A stretch of DNA of 64,000 nt from positions 1 through 64,000 of the forward strand of contig NZ_ANNU01000005.1 in assembly GCF_000346615.1 (NCBI RefSeq), read 5' to 3'. This document shows positions 5,343-12,366 of this stretch, piece after piece (the stretch's first letter is position 1; each line of letters opens with the position of its first letter). A program made the position numbers and the translations under genes. Source of the DNA: Nafulsella turpanensis ZLM-10. GTDB taxonomy: Bacteria; Bacteroidota; Bacteroidia; Cytophagales; Cyclobacteriaceae. The notes below the pieces were generated by a model. It was not told the origin of the DNA. It did not search any database and worked only from the letters and a program-made list of their open reading frames with translations.

Positions 5343-6014
5343 ATGCTAAAGGAACATGCTCTCCAGTGGGTAAGCTACCTTAATGGCCGGCAAAAGGGCC
5401 TGCTGGCGCTAATGGTGGCTACTTACCTGGCAGGTATTGTAGGTTTAATATTACCTGTCAGCCGTACGCTTTTTCAGTCACTTACTCCTGTAAACCTCCT
5501 TCTTTCGGCGGGGATCCTTTTTTCCTTTCACCGGCAATGGAATAGTGCTTTTATTCTTTTTGCTGTGGTGTGCTACCTGCTGGGCTTTTTTTCTGAAGTG
5601 GTGGGTGTGGCGACAGGTCTGCTTTTTGGCAGCTATACTTACGGGCCTGTTTTAGGATTTCAGCTGTGGGAAGTTCCTCTTATTATCGGCCTGAACTGGC
5701 TGATGCTTATTTACAGCACTGGCACTATTTGTGCGAACTTACCCCTATCCAAGTTCTTAAAAGCCCTTTTTGCTTCCGGTTTAATGGTACTCCTGGATTT
5801 CTTTATCGAACCGGTGGCCATGGCGCTGAATTTCTGGCAGTGGGAAAATGAACAGATTCCTGTGCAGAACTTTATTGCCTGGTTTGTCATCTCTTTTATC
5901 CTGCATCTGCTCTTTTTCCTGCTCCCCTTTCCCAAAGGCAACCCGGCGGCTAAAATTTTATATCTCTGCCAATTGGTATTCTTTATTATTTTATGTTTGT
6001 TTACTGTTTATTAG
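5343..6014 (+). CDS. cruF: CruF-like carotenoid biosynthesis membrane protein (carotenoid 1,2-hydratase family, DUF422)
   Basis: A 223-residue protein with about six or seven membrane helices. It matches family PF04240, which includes CruF of cyanobacteria and the haloarchaeal bisanhydrobacterioruberin hydratase. These enzymes add water to the psi end of an acyclic or monocyclic carotene to give a 1-hydroxy group. Family marks are GVATGLLFGSYTYGPVLG with VPLIIGLNWLM (near residues 86-122), and the acidic DFFIEPVAMALNFWQW followed by PVQNFIAWFVIS. It lacks the PxE(E/D) motif of the CrtYc/CrtYd lycopene cyclases, which are of similar size. It is first in the run cruF-crtZ-regulator, with 53 bases to crtZ, and supports a monocyclic product carrying a 1'-hydroxy end. 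Confidence 0.78.
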   Translation: MLKEHALQWVSYLNGRQKGLLALMVATYLAGIVGLILPVSRTLFQSLTPVNLLLSAGILFSFHRQWNSAFILFAVVCYLLGFFSEVVGVATGLLFGSYTYGPVLGFQLWEVPLIIGLNWLMLIYSTGTICANLPLSKFLKALFASGLMVLLDFFIEPVAMALNFWQWENEQIPVQNFIAWFVISFILHLLFFLLPFPKGNPAAKILYLCQLVFFIILCLFTVY

Positions 6015-6067
6015 ACCACAATTAAACAAGATTTTCAGGCTTCCGTTAACTAAATAATAGTTAACTT

Positions 6068-6529
6068 ATGATACTTGTTGTTTCCGTCATACTCAGCTTC
6101 ATTGGTATGGAATTAGCCTCATGGCTTATTCACAGGTATATTATGCATGGGCCGTTATGGAATATCCATAAAACACACCACCAGCATAAAGGGGGATGGC
6201 TGGAGCTGAACGATGTATTTACCCTCTTCTTCGGTGGTCTGGCAGTTATTTTCCTGGTCGTTGGGCTGGAACACAATAATGGAGTGCTAACATGTACCGG
6301 AACAGGAATTACCCTTTATGGACTAACCTATTTTATAGTGCACGACATGCTGATTCACCGCCGACTAAAGCTGTTCGGTCGGGTAAAACATCCGTTTCTA
6401 AAAGCCTTGGCCGAGGCCCATCAGGACCACCACAAAAGTAGAGAACGCGATGGCAGCACCTCGTTCGGGTTGCTGTTAATTGATATTAAATATATTCGTA
6501 AACACTTTAGACAAGGGAGGAAAACGTGA
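6068..6529 (+). CDS. crtZ: Beta-carotene 3-hydroxylase (CrtZ-type, fatty acid hydroxylase superfamily)
   Basis: A 153-residue integral membrane di-iron enzyme that puts a hydroxyl on C3 of beta-ionone rings. All histidine boxes are present: H22-x4-H27 (HRYIMH), HKTHHQH at 34-40, VHDMLIH near 93, and AHQDHHK near 119. The length is normal for bacterial CrtZ. Its stop codon overlaps the GTG start of the MerR regulator by 4 bases, so the two genes are translationally coupled and the regulator is tied to the pigment genes. With CrtW encoded downstream, the ring could become 3-hydroxy-4-keto. Confidence 0.9.
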   Translation: MILVVSVILSFIGMELASWLIHRYIMHGPLWNIHKTHHQHKGGWLELNDVFTLFFGGLAVIFLVVGLEHNNGVLTCTGTGITLYGLTYFIVHDMLIHRRLKLFGRVKHPFLKALAEAHQDHHKSRERDGSTSFGLLLIDIKYIRKHFRQGRKT

Positions 6530-7428
6530 GTTCCTATTCCATTAAAGACCTGGAGCAGCTTTCGGGCATTAAAGCCCATACCCTGCGTATTTGGGAGCAA
6601 CGCTATAATTTTATTACCCCAAAGCGTACCGAAACCAATATTCGTTATTACAATGACCATGACCTTAAGCTGATTTTAAATGTGTCGCTCCTCCGCGAAA
6701 ATGGCTATAAAATATCCAAAATAGCCGAAATGGAGCCGCAGCAAATGGCACAGGCAGTTCTCAGCATCACCGAAAAGAGCGACAACTTCGCTGACCAAAT
6801 CCACAGTCTGGTTCTCTCGATGATTGACCTGGACGAAGAGCGCTTCGAGAAGATTCTGTCGACGAACATCCTGCAGAACGGCTTCGAAAATACCATGCTG
6901 GGTATTATTTTTCCTTTTCTTAACAAAATTGGCATCCTCTGGCAAACAGGTTCAATCAATCCTGCTCACGAACATTTTATTTCTAACCTCATCAGGCAGA
7001 AATTAATCGTAGCAATTGATGGATGCTATGTATCCAGCAAAGAAACCCGCAACAAATACCTCCTCTTTCTGCCGGAAGGTGAGCTCCACGAAATCAGCCT
7101 GCTCTTTTGTCACTATATTATCAAGAGCCGGAAGAATAAGGTGGTGTACCTTGGCCAGAACGTACCCCTGCCCGACCTTGCCAGTACTTACGATACTTAC
7201 CAGCCCAATTTTCTGGTGGGCGTACTTACCTGTGCCCCGGTACAGGCTAAGGTGCAAAAATATATTAACCAGCTGGGAGAGAGTTTTCCTAAGAGTAAAA
7301 TATTCCTGTCCGGGCAGCAGGTAATTGGGCAGGATCTGAAAGCCCCGCAAAATGTAGAGTTTTTTCTTCGGCTCGATAGCTTTCTGAATCTGGTAGAAGA
7401 GCTTTCGGCCGGAAAAATAACTGGCTAA
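6526..7428 (+). CDS. MerR-family regulator with B12-binding domain (CarH/LitR-like photoreceptor)
   Basis: A 300-residue regulator. Residues 4-70 form the MerR winged helix (YSIKDLEQLSGIKAHTLRIW, then RYYNDHDLKLI). Residues about 90-160 match the four-helix cobalamin cap, and about 175-300 the Rossmann B12-binding domain. CarH photoreceptors use the Wx9EH cap motif, here Trp139, Glu149, His150 exactly, and an ExHxxG motif giving the lower axial histidine, here E-L-H188-E-I-S with the last Gly changed to Ser. The residue after the cap Trp is Gln140, where Thermus CarH has the His that forms the light-state adduct. It starts at GTG with a GGGAGG ribosome site at 6515-6520, unusual for this phylum. 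It likely represses the carotenoid genes in the dark and releases in light. AdoCbl binding is inference. Confidence 0.85.
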   Translation: MSSYSIKDLEQLSGIKAHTLRIWEQRYNFITPKRTETNIRYYNDHDLKLILNVSLLRENGYKISKIAEMEPQQMAQAVLSITEKSDNFADQIHSLVLSMIDLDEERFEKILSTNILQNGFENTMLGIIFPFLNKIGILWQTGSINPAHEHFISNLIRQKLIVAIDGCYVSSKETRNKYLLFLPEGELHEISLLFCHYIIKSRKNKVVYLGQNVPLPDLASTYDTYQPNFLVGVLTCAPVQAKVQKYINQLGESFPKSKIFLSGQQVIGQDLKAPQNVEFFLRLDSFLNLVEELSAGKITG

Positions 7429-7611: not shown

Positions 7612-7642
7612 TTGCTATTTTAGGGAACATATCTTAAATTTG
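7612..7642 (+). promoter_or_regulatory. Promoter of the sigma factor-crtI-crtB run
   Basis: TTG at 7612-7614, 20-base spacer, then TAAATTTG at 7635-7642, a full match to the Bacteroidota -7 consensus TAnnTTTG. Transcription would start near 7650, 30 bases before the sigma factor ATG. The 180 bases upstream (7429-7611) hold no gene and are the natural place for an operator of the CarH-like regulator. Two CCGGCC copies (7498-7503 and 7519-7524, approximate) lie about two helical turns apart there. Confidence 0.62.
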
Positions 7643-7679
7643 TTTAACTTTTTTACTGAACTTATAAACATTTTTTTGC

Positions 7680-8189
7680 ATGACAGCACTAGAATTCAGT
7701 TATTCCCTGAACAAAATGTCCAAGTCGTTAAAACCATTTGCTTTGAAACTGACGAAAGATATGGAAGAAGCAAATGACCTGTTGCAGGAAACCATCCTGA
7801 AAGCCTTTACGAACCGAGATAAGTTTGCCGATGGTACCAACCTGAAAGCCTGGTTGTACACGATCATGAAAAACACCTTTATTACCAACTATCAGCGCAT
7901 GGTAAGAAGGAACACCTTTATCGACACCACCGATAACCTCCACTACATTAACTCAACTGATAATATTACAGAAAACCTGGCCTACTCAAGCTTTGCTTTA
8001 AAGGATATAAACGAAGCCATCGTAAATCTGGACGACGCTTACAAAACTCCTTTTATGATGCACTTCCGTGGCTTTAAATACCACGAAATAGCCGATAAAC
8101 TAAGCATTCCTATCGGTACTGTTAAAAACCGCATCCACATTGCCCGCAAAGAACTCAAGAGTAAGCTGAAGAATTACGCTGTAAAATAA
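7680..8189 (+). CDS. ECF-type RNA polymerase sigma factor (sigma-70 family)
   Basis: A 169-residue sigma factor with only regions 2 and 4. Region 2 shows KDMEEANDLLQETILKAF and KAWLYTIMKNTFIT (about residues 28-68). Region 4 shows HFRGFKYHEIADKLSIPIGT followed by VKNRIHIARKEL. It directs RNA polymerase to a specific promoter set. It is 21 bases before crtI and no anti-sigma gene is next to it, so control may be transcriptional, through the CarH-like regulator just upstream. This recalls the light circuits in Myxococcus (CarQ) and LitR systems in other bacteria, where a sigma factor drives crt genes. The target promoters cannot be read from this sequence. Confidence 0.9.
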   Translation: MTALEFSYSLNKMSKSLKPFALKLTKDMEEANDLLQETILKAFTNRDKFADGTNLKAWLYTIMKNTFITNYQRMVRRNTFIDTTDNLHYINSTDNITENLAYSSFALKDINEAIVNLDDAYKTPFMMHFRGFKYHEIADKLSIPIGTVKNRIHIARKELKSKLKNYAVK

Positions 8190-8210: not shown

Positions 8211-9680
8211 ATGAACAAAAAAATAGTTGTAATTGGTGCAGGCTTTGCCGGTATTTCGGCAGCCTCCACCCTGGCAAAGCAGGGATACCATGTAACAGTA
8301 CTGGAAAAACATAAAACCCCCGGCGGACGTGCTCGCGCATTTTCTGCCGAGGGTTTTACTTTTGATATGGGCCCCAGCTGGTACTGGATGCCCGATGTGT
8401 TCGAACAGTACTTTAACCGTTTCGGCAAGTCAGCCTCCGACTATTATATACTCCGGCGGCTCGACCCTTCCTATACCATCCACTTTGGTAAAAACGACGC
8501 CCTTGCTATACCTGCAGGGTTACCCGACTTATTTACGCTTTTCGAACAGCTCGAAAAAGGCAGCAGCCTTGCGCTGCAGAAGTTTCTGGAACAGGCGGCC
8601 TATAAGTACAAAGTAGGCATGCAGCAACTGGTTTATAAACCCGCCCGCTCCATAAAAGAATTTACAAGCCTTCGCCTCCTGCTGGATATAGCCCGGATGG
8701 ATGTATTCAGCTCCTTTCATAAACATATCCGCAGGTATTTCAGCCATCCTAAAATTCTGCAGCTGATGGAGTTCCCCATCCTGTTTTTAGGCGCCTTACC
8801 CCAAAATACTCCTGCCCTCTACAGCCTTATGAATTATGCCGACATTCAGTTAGGCACCTGGTATCCCATGGGGGGCATGCACGAAATTATAAAAGGAATG
8901 GTAAGCCTCGCAGAAGAGCAGGGTGTAAACTTTCTGTACGAGCACAATGTGAAGGGATTTGACGTTATCGACGGAAAGATAAAAGCGGTGAACACCGATA
9001 AAGGAACTGTTACTGCCGATGTAGTAGTAGGCGGAGCAGACTATCACCACATCGAACAGCAATTGCTGCCCCCTCCCTACCGGAGCTACAGCGAAGCTTA
9101 CTGGCAAAAGCGCACCTTGGCCCCCTCTTCTCTTCTGTTTTACATAGGGGTCAACAAAAAGTTGAAAGGACTGCAGCACCATAACCTCTTTTTCGATCGT
9201 GACTTTATGCCCCATGCCCGTGAAATATACGAGCAGCCACAATGGCCAACTGATCCACTTTTTTACGTTTGCACCCCTTCCAAAACCGATAATTCCGTAG
9301 CCCCTGATGGCTCAGAAAATTTGTTTATACTGATGCCGGTAGCCCCGGGCCTGGACGATACCGAAGAAACACGTGAAAAATATTACCACCTGCTAATGGA
9401 CAGGCTGGAAACATTAACAGGCCAGGAAATCCGGCCCCACGTGGTATACCAGCGCAGCTATGCACACCAGAACTTTATAGAGGATTATAATGCCTTTAAA
9501 GGCAATGCCTATGGACTGGCCAACACATTAATGCAGACTGCCCTGCTGAAACCATCTCTTAAAAGCAAAAAGCTCAAAAATCTCTACTACACCGGTCAGT
9601 TAACCGTACCCGGTCCCGGGGTACCACCTTCTCTCATCTCCGGACAGGTAGTAGCGGGAGAAATTATCCGGGAAAATTAA
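8211..9680 (+). CDS. crtI: Phytoene desaturase (CrtI)
   Basis: A 489-residue FAD-dependent oxidoreductase that desaturates phytoene stepwise to lycopene (or neurosporene). The N-terminal dinucleotide motif is VVIGAGFAGISAASTLAKQG with the distal acid in VLEKHKTPGGRARAF. The substrate region begins FDMGPSWYWMPDVFEQYF, and the C-terminal CrtI signature runs YYTGQLTVPGPGVPPSLISG to the end. All parts are intact. A related enzyme, CrtD, performs 3,4-desaturation; the neighbouring crtB and the residue pattern favour CrtI. Gene spacing (21 bases after the sigma gene, 44 before crtB) indicates one transcript. Confidence 0.95.
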   Translation: MNKKIVVIGAGFAGISAASTLAKQGYHVTVLEKHKTPGGRARAFSAEGFTFDMGPSWYWMPDVFEQYFNRFGKSASDYYILRRLDPSYTIHFGKNDALAIPAGLPDLFTLFEQLEKGSSLALQKFLEQAAYKYKVGMQQLVYKPARSIKEFTSLRLLLDIARMDVFSSFHKHIRRYFSHPKILQLMEFPILFLGALPQNTPALYSLMNYADIQLGTWYPMGGMHEIIKGMVSLAEEQGVNFLYEHNVKGFDVIDGKIKAVNTDKGTVTADVVVGGADYHHIEQQLLPPPYRSYSEAYWQKRTLAPSSLLFYIGVNKKLKGLQHHNLFFDRDFMPHAREIYEQPQWPTDPLFYVCTPSKTDNSVAPDGSENLFILMPVAPGLDDTEETREKYYHLLMDRLETLTGQEIRPHVVYQRSYAHQNFIEDYNAFKGNAYGLANTLMQTALLKPSLKSKKLKNLYYTGQLTVPGPGVPPSLISGQVVAGEIIREN

Positions 9681-9724: not shown

Positions 9725-10558
9725 ATGGAGCTGTTTAGCCAAACCACCTACGAGTGCAGTAAGCTTATTACCCAACGCTACAGCACTTCCTTTACCCTCG
9801 GCATAAAAACGCTGGATAAGCGCTTCCACATGCCTATCTATGCCATTTATGGTTTTGTTCGTTATGCAGATGAGATTGTAGATACCTTCCACGAACATGA
9901 TAAAGCTAAACTACTTAAGCGCTTCAGGCATGACACCCGCCTGGCCCTGGAAGAGAAAATAAGCCTGAACCCGGTTTTACACTGCTTCCAGGAAGTAGTG
10001 CACCAGTATAAAATAGAAACTGCCCTGATAGATGCCTTCCTCGACAGCATGGCCATGGACCTGCAATGGAAGCCATATGACCAGGAGCGGTACCAGGAGT
10101 ACATCTTTGGCTCGGCCGAAGCAGTAGGACTCATGTGCCTCCGTGTTTTTTGCGAAGGAGATACGGAGCAGTACGAGAAGCTGAGGGCGCCGGCTAAGAG
10201 TCTTGGCGCTGCCTTTCAGAAGGTTAACTTTCTACGCGATATAAGGAGTGACTATAACGAGCGGGGTCGGGTATACTTTCCGGGTGTTAATTTTAAGGAT
10301 TTCAGCTTATCTGAAAAGACTAGAATTGAGGAAGATATAGAGAATGATTTTAAACATGCCTATGAAGGTATTTTAGCCCTGCCAAAAGGAGCCAGGATGG
10401 GAGTATACCTGGCGTATATATATTACCTCAAATTGTTTAACAAAATAAAAAACAGCCCTGCTTCAACAGTCATAAACCAGCGCATTAGGATCGACAACCA
10501 AAGAAAACTTAGTCTGCTGATACAGACCATGTTCCGATTCAAATTTAATTATTTATGA
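9725..10558 (+). CDS. crtB: Phytoene synthase (CrtB)
   Basis: A 277-residue squalene/phytoene synthase family enzyme that joins two geranylgeranyl diphosphates head to head to make phytoene, the committed step. Both magnesium-binding Asp motifs are present: RYADEIVD near residue 42-49 and FLRDIRSDYNERGRVYFP near 168-185. Length is normal. The start is ATG at 9725 in MELFSQTTYECSKLITQRY. No geranylgeranyl diphosphate synthase gene (crtE/ispA type) is in the window, so that precursor must come from elsewhere in the genome. Confidence 0.95.
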   Translation: MELFSQTTYECSKLITQRYSTSFTLGIKTLDKRFHMPIYAIYGFVRYADEIVDTFHEHDKAKLLKRFRHDTRLALEEKISLNPVLHCFQEVVHQYKIETALIDAFLDSMAMDLQWKPYDQERYQEYIFGSAEAVGLMCLRVFCEGDTEQYEKLRAPAKSLGAAFQKVNFLRDIRSDYNERGRVYFPGVNFKDFSLSEKTRIEEDIENDFKHAYEGILALPKGARMGVYLAYIYYLKLFNKIKNSPASTVINQRIRIDNQRKLSLLIQTMFRFKFNYL

Positions 10559-10564
10559 CAATTA

Positions 10565-10600
10565 TTGGTAGGATGATGGAATCTTATTTCCGTATATTTG
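10565..10600 (+). promoter_or_regulatory. Possible internal promoter before ispH
   Basis: TATATTTG at 10593-10600 fully matches the -7 element TAnnTTTG. The nearest TTG (10565-10567) is 25 bases upstream, longer than the usual spacing, so the -33 part is weak. It would let ispH be expressed apart from the pigment genes, which suits an essential enzyme. Confidence 0.4.
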
Positions 10601-10646
10601 TTAAAGTAGCAAGCCATTAAAGTTACACAATTTTACCTGCAGTGCC

Positions 10647-11492
10647 ATGCCAGATTTAGAGGTAGCCATCGACCCACACTCAGGCTTCTGTTTTGGAGTA
10701 GTGTATGCTATTGCAATGGCCGAAGAAATTCTTGATGAACAGGGCTACCTTTACTGCCTGGGCGATATTGTCCATAACGATGAAGAGGTAAAGCGTCTTC
10801 AGCGGAAAGGACTCAGGATTATATCACAAGGTGAACTCCGGAATTTGTATAACGAAAAAGTACTTATAAGGGCCCATGGCGAGCCTCCCGCCACCTACCA
10901 GCTTGCCCTGCAAAATAACCTTGAGCTTATCGATGCCTCCTGCCCCGTGGTGCTAAAGCTTCAAAACCGCATTAAAAACTCATTCGATAAGGAAGAGCAA
11001 ATATACATCTACGGTAAGCATGGACATGCCGAAGTCATCGGCCTGCTCGGGCAAACCAGCAACAAGGCCATCGTATTCCAGGACCTTGAAGAGCTAAAGC
11101 TGGAGGAACTTCCTAAGCGCCTTACCCTCTATAGCCAGACAACGAAAAGCACAGATCAGTTTTACCGCATAAAAAAAGCCATGGAGGAAGCGGGCATAGA
11201 AGTGAATGCCAATGATACCATTTGCCGGCAGGTAAGCAACAGAGATAAAGAGCTCCGGGAGTTTGCCGGCAGGTACAATAAAATTATATTTGTTTCCGGC
11301 ACTAAGTCCTCGAACGGGAAAGTGCTGTACGGAGTCTGTAAAGATCGTAACCCTAACACCTATTTTGTTTCCGGACCCGCCGACCTGCAGGCTGCCTGGT
11401 TCGAGGAAGGGGATACCGTAGGCATTTGTGGCGCAACCTCTACGCCCCTGTGGCTGATGGAATCGGTAAAGGAGACGATAGAGCGGATTTGA
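10647..11492 (+). CDS. ispH: 4-hydroxy-3-methylbut-2-enyl diphosphate reductase (IspH/LytB)
   Basis: A 281-residue cytosolic iron-sulfur enzyme for the last step of the methylerythritol phosphate pathway, making IPP and DMAPP. The three cluster cysteines are Cys15 (HSGFCFGV), Cys99 (IDASCPVV) and Cys193 (TICRQVSNRD). The histidine motif AHGEPP and the C-terminal GATSTPLWLME are present. Having the isoprenoid end-step beside crtB and crtW suggests the cluster also boosts precursor supply. The sequence is complete and starts at ATG 10647. Confidence 0.95.
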   Translation: MPDLEVAIDPHSGFCFGVVYAIAMAEEILDEQGYLYCLGDIVHNDEEVKRLQRKGLRIISQGELRNLYNEKVLIRAHGEPPATYQLALQNNLELIDASCPVVLKLQNRIKNSFDKEEQIYIYGKHGHAEVIGLLGQTSNKAIVFQDLEELKLEELPKRLTLYSQTTKSTDQFYRIKKAMEEAGIEVNANDTICRQVSNRDKELREFAGRYNKIIFVSGTKSSNGKVLYGVCKDRNPNTYFVSGPADLQAAWFEEGDTVGICGATSTPLWLMESVKETIERI

Positions 11493-11655: not shown

Positions 11656-12366
11656 ATGCCAGCTATGCAGCCAAGCTCATCAGCAAAAGACCTTTATCTA
11701 ACTTCCCGCGGTACCCTTATTGCAGGCGGTATTATCGTGGGCTGGTTACTGTTATTGCTCTTCCTGCTCGGCAGCTATACCATCAACTGGAGCTCTCCCC
11801 TCACCTACCTGTTTGTTTGGCTGCAAACGCACCTGTATACCGGCCTTTTTATTACAGCGCACGATGCCATGCACGGTGCCATTAGCCCAAAGCCAGTAGT
11901 TAACAAACGACTCGGACAGCTATCTGCCCTGCTATTTGCCTTTAACTCCTACAATAAGCTCTTCCCGAAACACCACGAGCACCACCGCTTCGTGGCCAGC
12001 GATAAAGATCCGGACTACCACGCCAGTCAGAACTTTTTTATCTGGTACTTCAGCTTTCTGAAGCAGTACATCACCTGGTGGCAGATAGTAGCCATGGCCA
12101 TTACTTACAACCTGCTAAAACTCGCTTTTCCGCAGGAAAATGTTGTTCTCTTCTGGATTGTCCCTTCCCTTTTGGCTACACTCCAGCTTTTTTACTTTGG
12201 CACTTACCTCCCGCACAGGGGAGAGCATAGCAATCGGCACAAATCAGGCAGCCAGCGCAAGAATCACCTGTGGGCCTTTTTAAGCTGCTATTTTTTCGGC
12301 TACCACTGGGAACACCACAACCACCCCGGCACCCCCTGGTGGCAATTATGGAAAAAGAAGCGATAA
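11656..12366 (+). CDS. crtW: Beta-carotene 4-ketolase (CrtW-type, fatty acid desaturase superfamily)
   Basis: A 236-residue membrane enzyme with four predicted helices and the CrtW histidine set: HDAMH at 69-73, HHEHH at 106-110, and WEHHNHPGTPWW near 218-229. These bind two irons that oxidise C4 of a beta-ionone ring to a ketone. The order and spacing of boxes fit CrtW rather than acyl-lipid desaturases. The start could also be ATG 11665, three codons later. With CrtZ it would give a 3-hydroxy-4-keto ring end as in astaxanthin or flexixanthin. It is 163 bases after ispH and may have its own promoter. Confidence 0.92.
   Translation: MPAMQPSSSAKDLYLTSRGTLIAGGIIVGWLLLLLFLLGSYTINWSSPLTYLFVWLQTHLYTGLFITAHDAMHGAISPKPVVNKRLGQLSALLFAFNSYNKLFPKHHEHHRFVASDKDPDYHASQNFFIWYFSFLKQYITWWQIVAMAITYNLLKLAFPQENVVLFWIVPSLLATLQLFYFGTYLPHRGEHSNRHKSGSQRKNHLWAFLSCYFFGYHWEHHNHPGTPWWQLWKKKR

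Follow-up and report, generated by a model that had tools for sequence, protein, structure and literature searches.

A CarH-like, putatively B12-binding regulator of Bacteroidota without the adduct histidine and its proposed light regulon

The gene at 6526..7428 (+ strand) of the window, by which we mean the whole stretch of 64,000 nucleotides from contig NZ_ANNU01000005.1 of Nafulsella turpanensis ZLM-10, encodes a CarH-like MerR/B12 regulator of 300 aa, recognized by its ORF, Pfam domains, PDB match, AlphaFold2 model and fold matches. The protein is likely an AdoCbl-dependent, light-released repressor from a clade of Bacteroidota that works without bis-His ligation, and it would command a light regulon, partly via an ECF sigma factor. 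We computed the sequence features, the fold, the ligand states across the clade, the synteny, the enrichment of an inverted repeat (dyad), the classes of its target genes and its co-occurrence with carH.

The ORF starts with GTG and overlaps by 4 bases with the stop of the upstream crtZ-like gene. Its product contains a MerR DNA-binding domain (aa 4-71; 6535..6738, +; PF13411, MerR_1, E 4.2e-17) with the recognition motif RIWEQRY. R21, W23, E24 and R26 of this domain are invariant in two alignments, A1, built without L023 (internal stop) and L006, L008, L010, L013, L015 and L017 (size), and A2, made up of 43 from among the 80 named loci, with L080 dropped for an internal stop. A B12-binding_2 helical bundle follows (aa 93-160; 6802..7005, +; PF02607, E 2.9e-9). 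The Pfam search found no match to B12-binding PF02310 in the protein; according to the AlphaFold2 model (mean pLDDT 92.8), where the C-terminal Rossmann part has high confidence, a C-terminal Rossmann B12 domain is present. The protein has the architecture of MerR, helical bundle and Rossmann B12 domain, the last by predicted structure and the others by Pfam. In structure comparison the top solved fold is CtMerR (Z 19.8, rmsd 3.4, 222 residues aligned), followed by SasPcob (Z 18.6, rmsd 2.6, 205 residues) and TtCarH (Z 18.4, rmsd 2.9, 200 residues), where rows within about 1 Z are regarded as tied. By phmmer, Thermus CarH is matched with E 3.5e-18 (3whp) and E 4.2e-18 (5c8d). The organism's own genome contains a single match to the protein, and it encodes a PduO-type adenosyltransferase (PF01923), so a supply of AdoCbl is likely.

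In the phmmer columns, W139, Q140, E149, H150 and H188 correspond to W131, H132, E141, H142 and H177 of Thermus CarH, and S191 to the Gly of HxxG. The Wx9EH motif (W139, E149, H150; 6940..6975, +) is intact, with Q140 (6943-6945) in place of the light-state adduct His, and ExHxxS (7081..7098, +) holds E186, the axial-ligand candidate H188 and S191. This alignment and the Pfam match agree with what the preliminary description had read from the letters, namely the MerR domain, Trp139, Glu149, His150 and axial His188, as well as Gln140 for the adduct His and Ser191 for Gly. An intact Wx9EH, which the window protein has, separates CarH from CarA according to the available text of PMC9304148. The light signature of AdoCbl photoreceptors, given as GxxW, EH, GxxH and GxxxP in the available text of PMC11796333, is complete as well, with all four SignatureFinder motifs found (G136-I-L-W139, E149-H150, G185-E-L-H188 and G210-Q-N-V-P214). 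In the classic B12 motif D/ExHx2G/P-SxT/V-GG the axial His part is retained (H188); the last Gly/Pro, SxT/V and GG are replaced by S191, V233-L-T235 and S-G-Q (262-264), in positions which vary across the clade. The NCBIfam CarH equivalog NF052513 scores 91.3 bits against a cut-off of 400, and the His after the Trp of Wx9EH, which bis-His ligation uses, is Q140. Because the light signature is present but the equivalog score, the classic GG and the bis-His position differ, we call the protein CarH-like in its presumed working, rather than a CarH equivalog.

Q140 and S191 had been regarded as a peculiarity of this protein, but it turned out that both are normal states of its clade. Of 163 aligned homologs, three of them doubtful rows, 89 carry Gln at position 140 and only 4 carry His. 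These 4 are two Thermus proteins, a homolog from a genome in a different class of the phylum, and that of Persicobacter, in which EH and the axial His are both lost. At position 191, 71 of the 163 have Ser and 66 have Gly, and Ser, Gly, Ala or Thr are ordinary in the clade. In a quick homolog tree with long branches, which leaves out L160, L150, L151 and L080, a clade of 142 rows (support 99) covers nearly all of the window's class. No row of it has the axial His and the adduct His together; position 140 is Gln in 89 rows, nonpolar in 39 and charged or polar in 2, and the axial His is lost in 12. W139, E149, H150 and H188 are each present in 30 of 30 when the window is taken with its 29 nearest loci, in 80, 77, 76 and 73 of the 80 named loci, and in 110, 107, 106 and 103 of 110 homologs (the window's own included). 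Since these four residues are near-invariant, position 140 seems free to vary with the AdoCbl pocket kept. That the window encodes an individually altered CarH with unusual photochemistry is very improbable; Q140 and S191 are real, but both states occur clade-wide, which already contradicts the word "individual".

A group of ten rows within the tree (L077, L079, L082, L097, L099, L100, L102, L134, L136 and L154; support 100 in the same quick tree) no longer has the axial His; EH is altered in every one of them, and 8 of 10 retain Trp. Seven members are named, six titled Saprospiraceae and one Lewinella. These proteins are probably B12-free repressors and, judged by their residues, a natural contrast to the rest, which keep B12. 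We rejected the idea that the window protein is decayed or B12-free, as Q140 and S191 might suggest, since the rows that lose B12 features look different. Besides, the contig of L054 is filed as Thalassovita (Pseudomonadota) and its carH groups inside the Bacteroidota rows; it is probably mis-binned.

B12 light sensors without the adduct His are already known. The available text of PMC11796333 describes Arg, Gln and Tyr at the adduct position in CtMerR, SasPcob and AbDPcob, with differing photochemical routes proposed, and in the text at hand of PMC9304148 the adduct His is found in many CarH, not all. The earlier expectation of photochemistry unlike that of Thermus CarH holds in part: CtMerR, with Arg at this position, is without bis-His in its anaerobic light structure in the same available text of PMC11796333, while the supposed singularity of the window protein falls away. 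If the adduct His is needed for release, the clade must have another way. One may then ask whether the window protein senses the AdoCbl level, or is a B12-independent repressor, instead of responding to light. Without the adduct His release could be weak, as H132A TtCarH mostly stays tetrameric after aerobic light exposure, contrary to an earlier report (PMC10442372, in its available part), and the ten-row group did lose the axial His, with EH changed in each row. We consider this quite unlikely, because almost every other row retains W, E, H and H as a set and the putative targets are light-associated (rhodopsin, photolyase, carotenoid and BLUF genes).

The neighbours of the carH-like gene, all on the + strand, are mainly carotenoid genes. 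Upstream are a CruF-like carotenoid hydratase (5343..6014; PF04240, with TIGR03460 below its cut-off) and a CrtZ-like hydroxylase (6068..6529; PF04116), named by position and family, with no NCBIfam match. Downstream are an ECF sigma factor, the proposed relay (7680..8189; PF04542/PF08281), a CrtI-type bifunctional phytoene desaturase/3,4-desaturase (8211..9680; NF058655, 767.8 bits against a cut-off of 640), a member of the squalene/phytoene synthase family taken as CrtB by position (9725..10558; PF00494, no NCBIfam model over its cut-off), IspH (10647..11492; PF02401 and NF002187 over cut-off) and a CrtW-like ketolase (11656..12366; PF00487, with the best NCBIfam model BCarotKetCrtW at 237.6 bits, below its cut-off of 350). 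In 76 of 163 loci, 159 of which have at least 600 nt downstream of carH, the same strand carries a sigma homolog no further than 1200 nt behind carH. The 80 named loci, whose flanks are in part short, include 39 with a sigma homolog and 28 with crtI and crtB in these flanks.

The regions between carH and sigma have an operator-like inverted repeat, TGTTTAA-N16/17-TTAAACA, in common. Allowing at most 1 mismatch per half, there are 97 dyads with N16 in the 76 regions (shuffled mean 1.25, max 5) and 29 with N17 (shuffled mean 1.31, max 5). Dyads of gap 14-19 are found at least once in 72 of 76 regions and at least twice in 50, and same-sense half-sites are most often 44, 20-21 and 63-64 bp apart. 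Since several loci are near-duplicates, such as L111 and L119, whose contigs have the same length, the counts of dyads and loci are not those of independent events. Of the 72 regions with a dyad, 34 have the motif TAnnTTTG within the sigma-proximal one, and 30 of these also have TTG at 17-23 bp upstream, mostly 19, a spacing which we take to be the consensus promoter layout of Bacteroidota. With the -7 element inside the dyad, a protein on the dyad would block the promoter. In the window, the proposed CarH operator (7641..7670, N16, 1 mismatch) ends 9 bp before the sigma start codon, and the -7 element of the promoter candidate TTG-N20-TAAATTTG, of Bacteroidota type and read by eye (7612..7642, +), only overlaps the first two bases of this dyad. 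The crt synteny and the operator-like sites observed around the window's carH make carotenoid genes candidate targets. The proposal of a CarH-like light sensor tied to the crt genes gains from the four signature motifs, the recurrent crt synteny and the operator-like site shared by light-associated genes. A further candidate, that the dyad is a promoter of the type read by an ECF sigma factor, was set aside, as the repeat is symmetric and wide and also stands before carH, crtI, PTPS and rhodopsin genes, where an ECF factor may have a role.

The dyad is tied to CarH by its place and by co-occurrence, from which we infer CarH as the binder. Alternatively, it would be the operator of another light-response regulator, such as a TetR_C_23 or sigma-linked factor, with the CarH-like protein acting elsewhere, which we regard as unlikely. 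Among carH loci without adjacent sigma, a dyad occurs within 400 bp upstream of carH in 9 of 87, and the 78 others agree better with another regulator. However, the dyads are most concentrated directly behind carH (128 of the 204 dyads in 1.717 Mb of loci fall in 18.8 kb of carH-to-sigma regions), perfect dyads stand before carH where no sigma adjoins (L043, L051, L053, L066 and L117), and the half-site contains TAAACA, which fits the TnnACA core seen in the myxobacterial CarH operator logo in the available part of PMC9304148. A sigma gene far from carH carries the dyad in L197, L205 and L207-L209. Where crtZ adjoins carH, a dyad is found in only 7 of 41 loci (the window and 6 of 40 others), a count which, like the 9 of 87, leaves the connection of the dyad with CarH indirect.

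The window contains a second dyad before the crtZ-like gene (5998..6028, N17, 1 mismatch) and a weak third one between crtB and ispH (10599..10629, N17, 2 mismatches). With up to 2 mismatches there are 1 dyad with N16 (0.50 expected) and 2 with N17 (0.55 expected) in the window; the sites here are near chance and not significant by themselves, so the weight rests on relatives. With at most 1 mismatch allowed, the own genome has 9 N16 sites, where the reversed pattern gives 0, and 7 N17 sites, where it gives 3. The sole perfect dyad lies 26 bp upstream of a PTPS gene, which is followed by GTP cyclohydrolase I (FolE). Another dyad (G000:C5:152279-152308, L167) is found 51 bp upstream of a gene for a BLUF blue-light protein, which is possibly a second photoreceptor under control of the first. 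The remaining dyads are without evident light link, and several may have arisen by chance. The own genome, 99.85% complete, has no match to DNA_photolyase PF00875 despite the probable light regulon, nor to rhodopsin PF01036.

Perfect dyads add up to 76 across 39 genomes, the own one included, where the reversed pattern gives 8. We fetched 58 loci around perfect dyads; in 45 of them a neighbour could be assigned to a named class, and 13 are unclassified, the classes being named from the same sites that are counted. Generally, ECF sigma genes (17) are the most common, followed by PTPS (7, of which 2 are shared with a carotenoid-isomerase-like gene), rhodopsin (6), fasciclin (6), TetR-like (3, one shared with a flavin reductase; L188, L196 and L206, the last with PF17931), crtI (2, one with carH), photolyase (2), flavin reductase alone (1) and DUF4397 (1). 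Pfam on ten representatives confirmed rhodopsin, fasciclin, photolyase, flavin reductase, PTPS, TetR_C_23 and DUF4397; the crtI and carotenoid-isomerase-like classes and the L233 photolyase were named by reading the sequence, and the representatives of the former two gave only Amino_oxidase and its kin. The dyads at pigment, proton-pump and DNA repair genes suggest one switch for the whole light response. The dyad-marked TetR-like proteins may be either members of this regulon or the true binder, and perfect dyads upstream of them in 3 of 58 loci are what autoregulation would give; because of these dyads a TetR factor is the main rival as binder. Two genomes without full-length carH, G026 (98% complete, two perfect dyads) and G009 (83% complete, no carH, one perfect dyad), speak for another binder as well. 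In Caballeronia and Eleftheria, MerR-B12 genes also have DUF4397 and fasciclin genes as neighbours, and carH of Thermus has a flavin reductase and YceI nearby (loci L162, L163 and L158); such shared neighbours hint at an old common light regulon.

Rhodopsin genes offer a larger sample. In the window's order, probably Cytophagales, PF01036 is found in 129 of 390 genomes, and the dyad is upstream in 52 of 89 rhodopsin genes (shuffled mean 2.06, max 6), which are the best-scoring part among the matches listed, with L250 left out as an incomplete locus. By gap, 16 stands out among these 89 with 46 dyads, against 7 each for gaps 17 and 9, and seven control motifs give 0-3 each. Promoter elements behind the dyads, looked for by eye in the 89 regions, showed no clear consensus. 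Among rhodopsins of readable pump type, which we name by motif, taking DTE as proton pump and NDQ as sodium pump, the dyad accompanies 27 of 40 DTE rhodopsins and 1 of 16 of the other types (NDQ 11, DSA 3, DTA 1, DTS 1), so the regulon seems limited to proton-pump types. The non-DTE loci include L240-L249, L252, L253, L255, L330 and L331. A second family of the class (f19), probably Flavobacteriaceae, has PF01036 in 51 of 199 genomes. Its rhodopsin genes carry the dyad in 17 of the first 27 and in 32 of 47 in all, where 47 of 53 listed rows were tested, without L339, L340 and L350 (incomplete loci), G847, G884 and G825. Here the rhodopsin dyad tracks carH, which argues against another regulator: it is present at 30 of 39 rhodopsin genes with carH in the genome, G886 being counted there on a partial match, and at 2 of 8 with no carH detected (Fisher p 0.009, kinship ignored). 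The two exceptions with carH undetected are assemblies 81% and 86% complete. In the window's order carH occurs in 78 of 80 rhodopsin-bearing genomes, which says little, as carH is common there anyway (33 of 39 relatives).

Taking the CarH-like protein as the binder, the process could run as follows. In the dark, the protein would bind AdoCbl, with His188 below and Trp139 and Glu149 around the adenosyl group, and would assemble on the TGTTTAA-N16/17-TTAAACA repeats overlapping promoters, above all that of the adjoining ECF sigma gene. In the light, the Co-C bond would break and the protein would leave the DNA, presumably without a bis-His adduct because almost the whole clade has Gln or a nonpolar residue following Trp. 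The freed ECF sigma factor would drive crtI-crtB, and the further dyads would release crtZ-carH, PTPS-FolE and the BLUF gene in this organism; in relatives, the genes released would be those for proton-pump rhodopsin, photolyase and fasciclin. AdoCbl binding, light release, dyad recognition by CarH, repression and the sigma relay are all drawn here from sequence comparison.

On balance, we lean towards a broader reading, in which the B12 clade without bis-His would serve much of the Bacteroidota as master light switch. It would act at the inverted repeat, whose half-sites are spaced by about two turns of the helix, both alone and via the ECF sigma factor, and would turn on carotenoid, DTE rhodopsin, photolyase, pterin and fasciclin genes, with NDQ types excluded. 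If so, light induction of proteorhodopsin in flavobacteria, Dokdonia among them, would find its missing regulator in this clade, and the dyad is a direct candidate for control of light-responsive proteorhodopsin genes. In Dokdonia, the genes for proteorhodopsin, retinal, cryptochrome and photolyase respond to light in their expression according to PMC9040609, whose available text names no regulator of this response. Besides, the clade provides a natural set of likely light sensors with the B12 pocket and without the adduct His, in which the need for bis-His can be tested. In full-text open-licence literature, a scope outside which most subscription papers fall, no link of rhodopsin, CarH and Bacteroid was found. 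One B12 switch, partly via an ECF sigma factor, for carotenoids, proton-pump rhodopsin, photolyase and pterin is a new proposal as far as the literature searched goes.

Compared with known systems, the window protein shares with TtCarH and class I LitR the MerR domain, the helical bundle, the Rossmann B12 domain, W/E/H and the axial His, the adjoining carotenoid genes and a TnnACA-type half-site. It differs from them, with 24-27% identity, in having Gln for His132, Ser for Gly and no GG, in the proposed inverted repeats instead of direct 11-bp repeats, and in the adjoining ECF sigma gene. A light regulator together with an ECF sigma factor is known from Streptomyces LitR-LitS and Myxococcus CarH/CarQ, which resemble the window in this pairing and in the crt genes, and belong to other phyla with a different operator and regulon. 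CtMerR of Chloracidobacterium (8jbs/8jbt) is the best structural match and also has no adduct His (Arg), but the identity in structural alignment is only 18%, and no regulon was found for it in the available text of PMC11796333. The photocobilin SasPcob of Saccharothrix (8j2w/8j2x) has the same Gln at the adduct position; unlike the window protein, it has a biliverdin-binding region behind the B12 domain, and no MerR domain is described for it in the available text of PMC11796333. Finally, the regulon of class II LitR in Pseudomonas putida (PplR) is similar in its targets, since photolyase and FolE are light-inducible there according to the available text of PMC9758184, whereas class II LitR has the helical bundle only and in P. 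mendocina serves as the effector of a short LOV protein.
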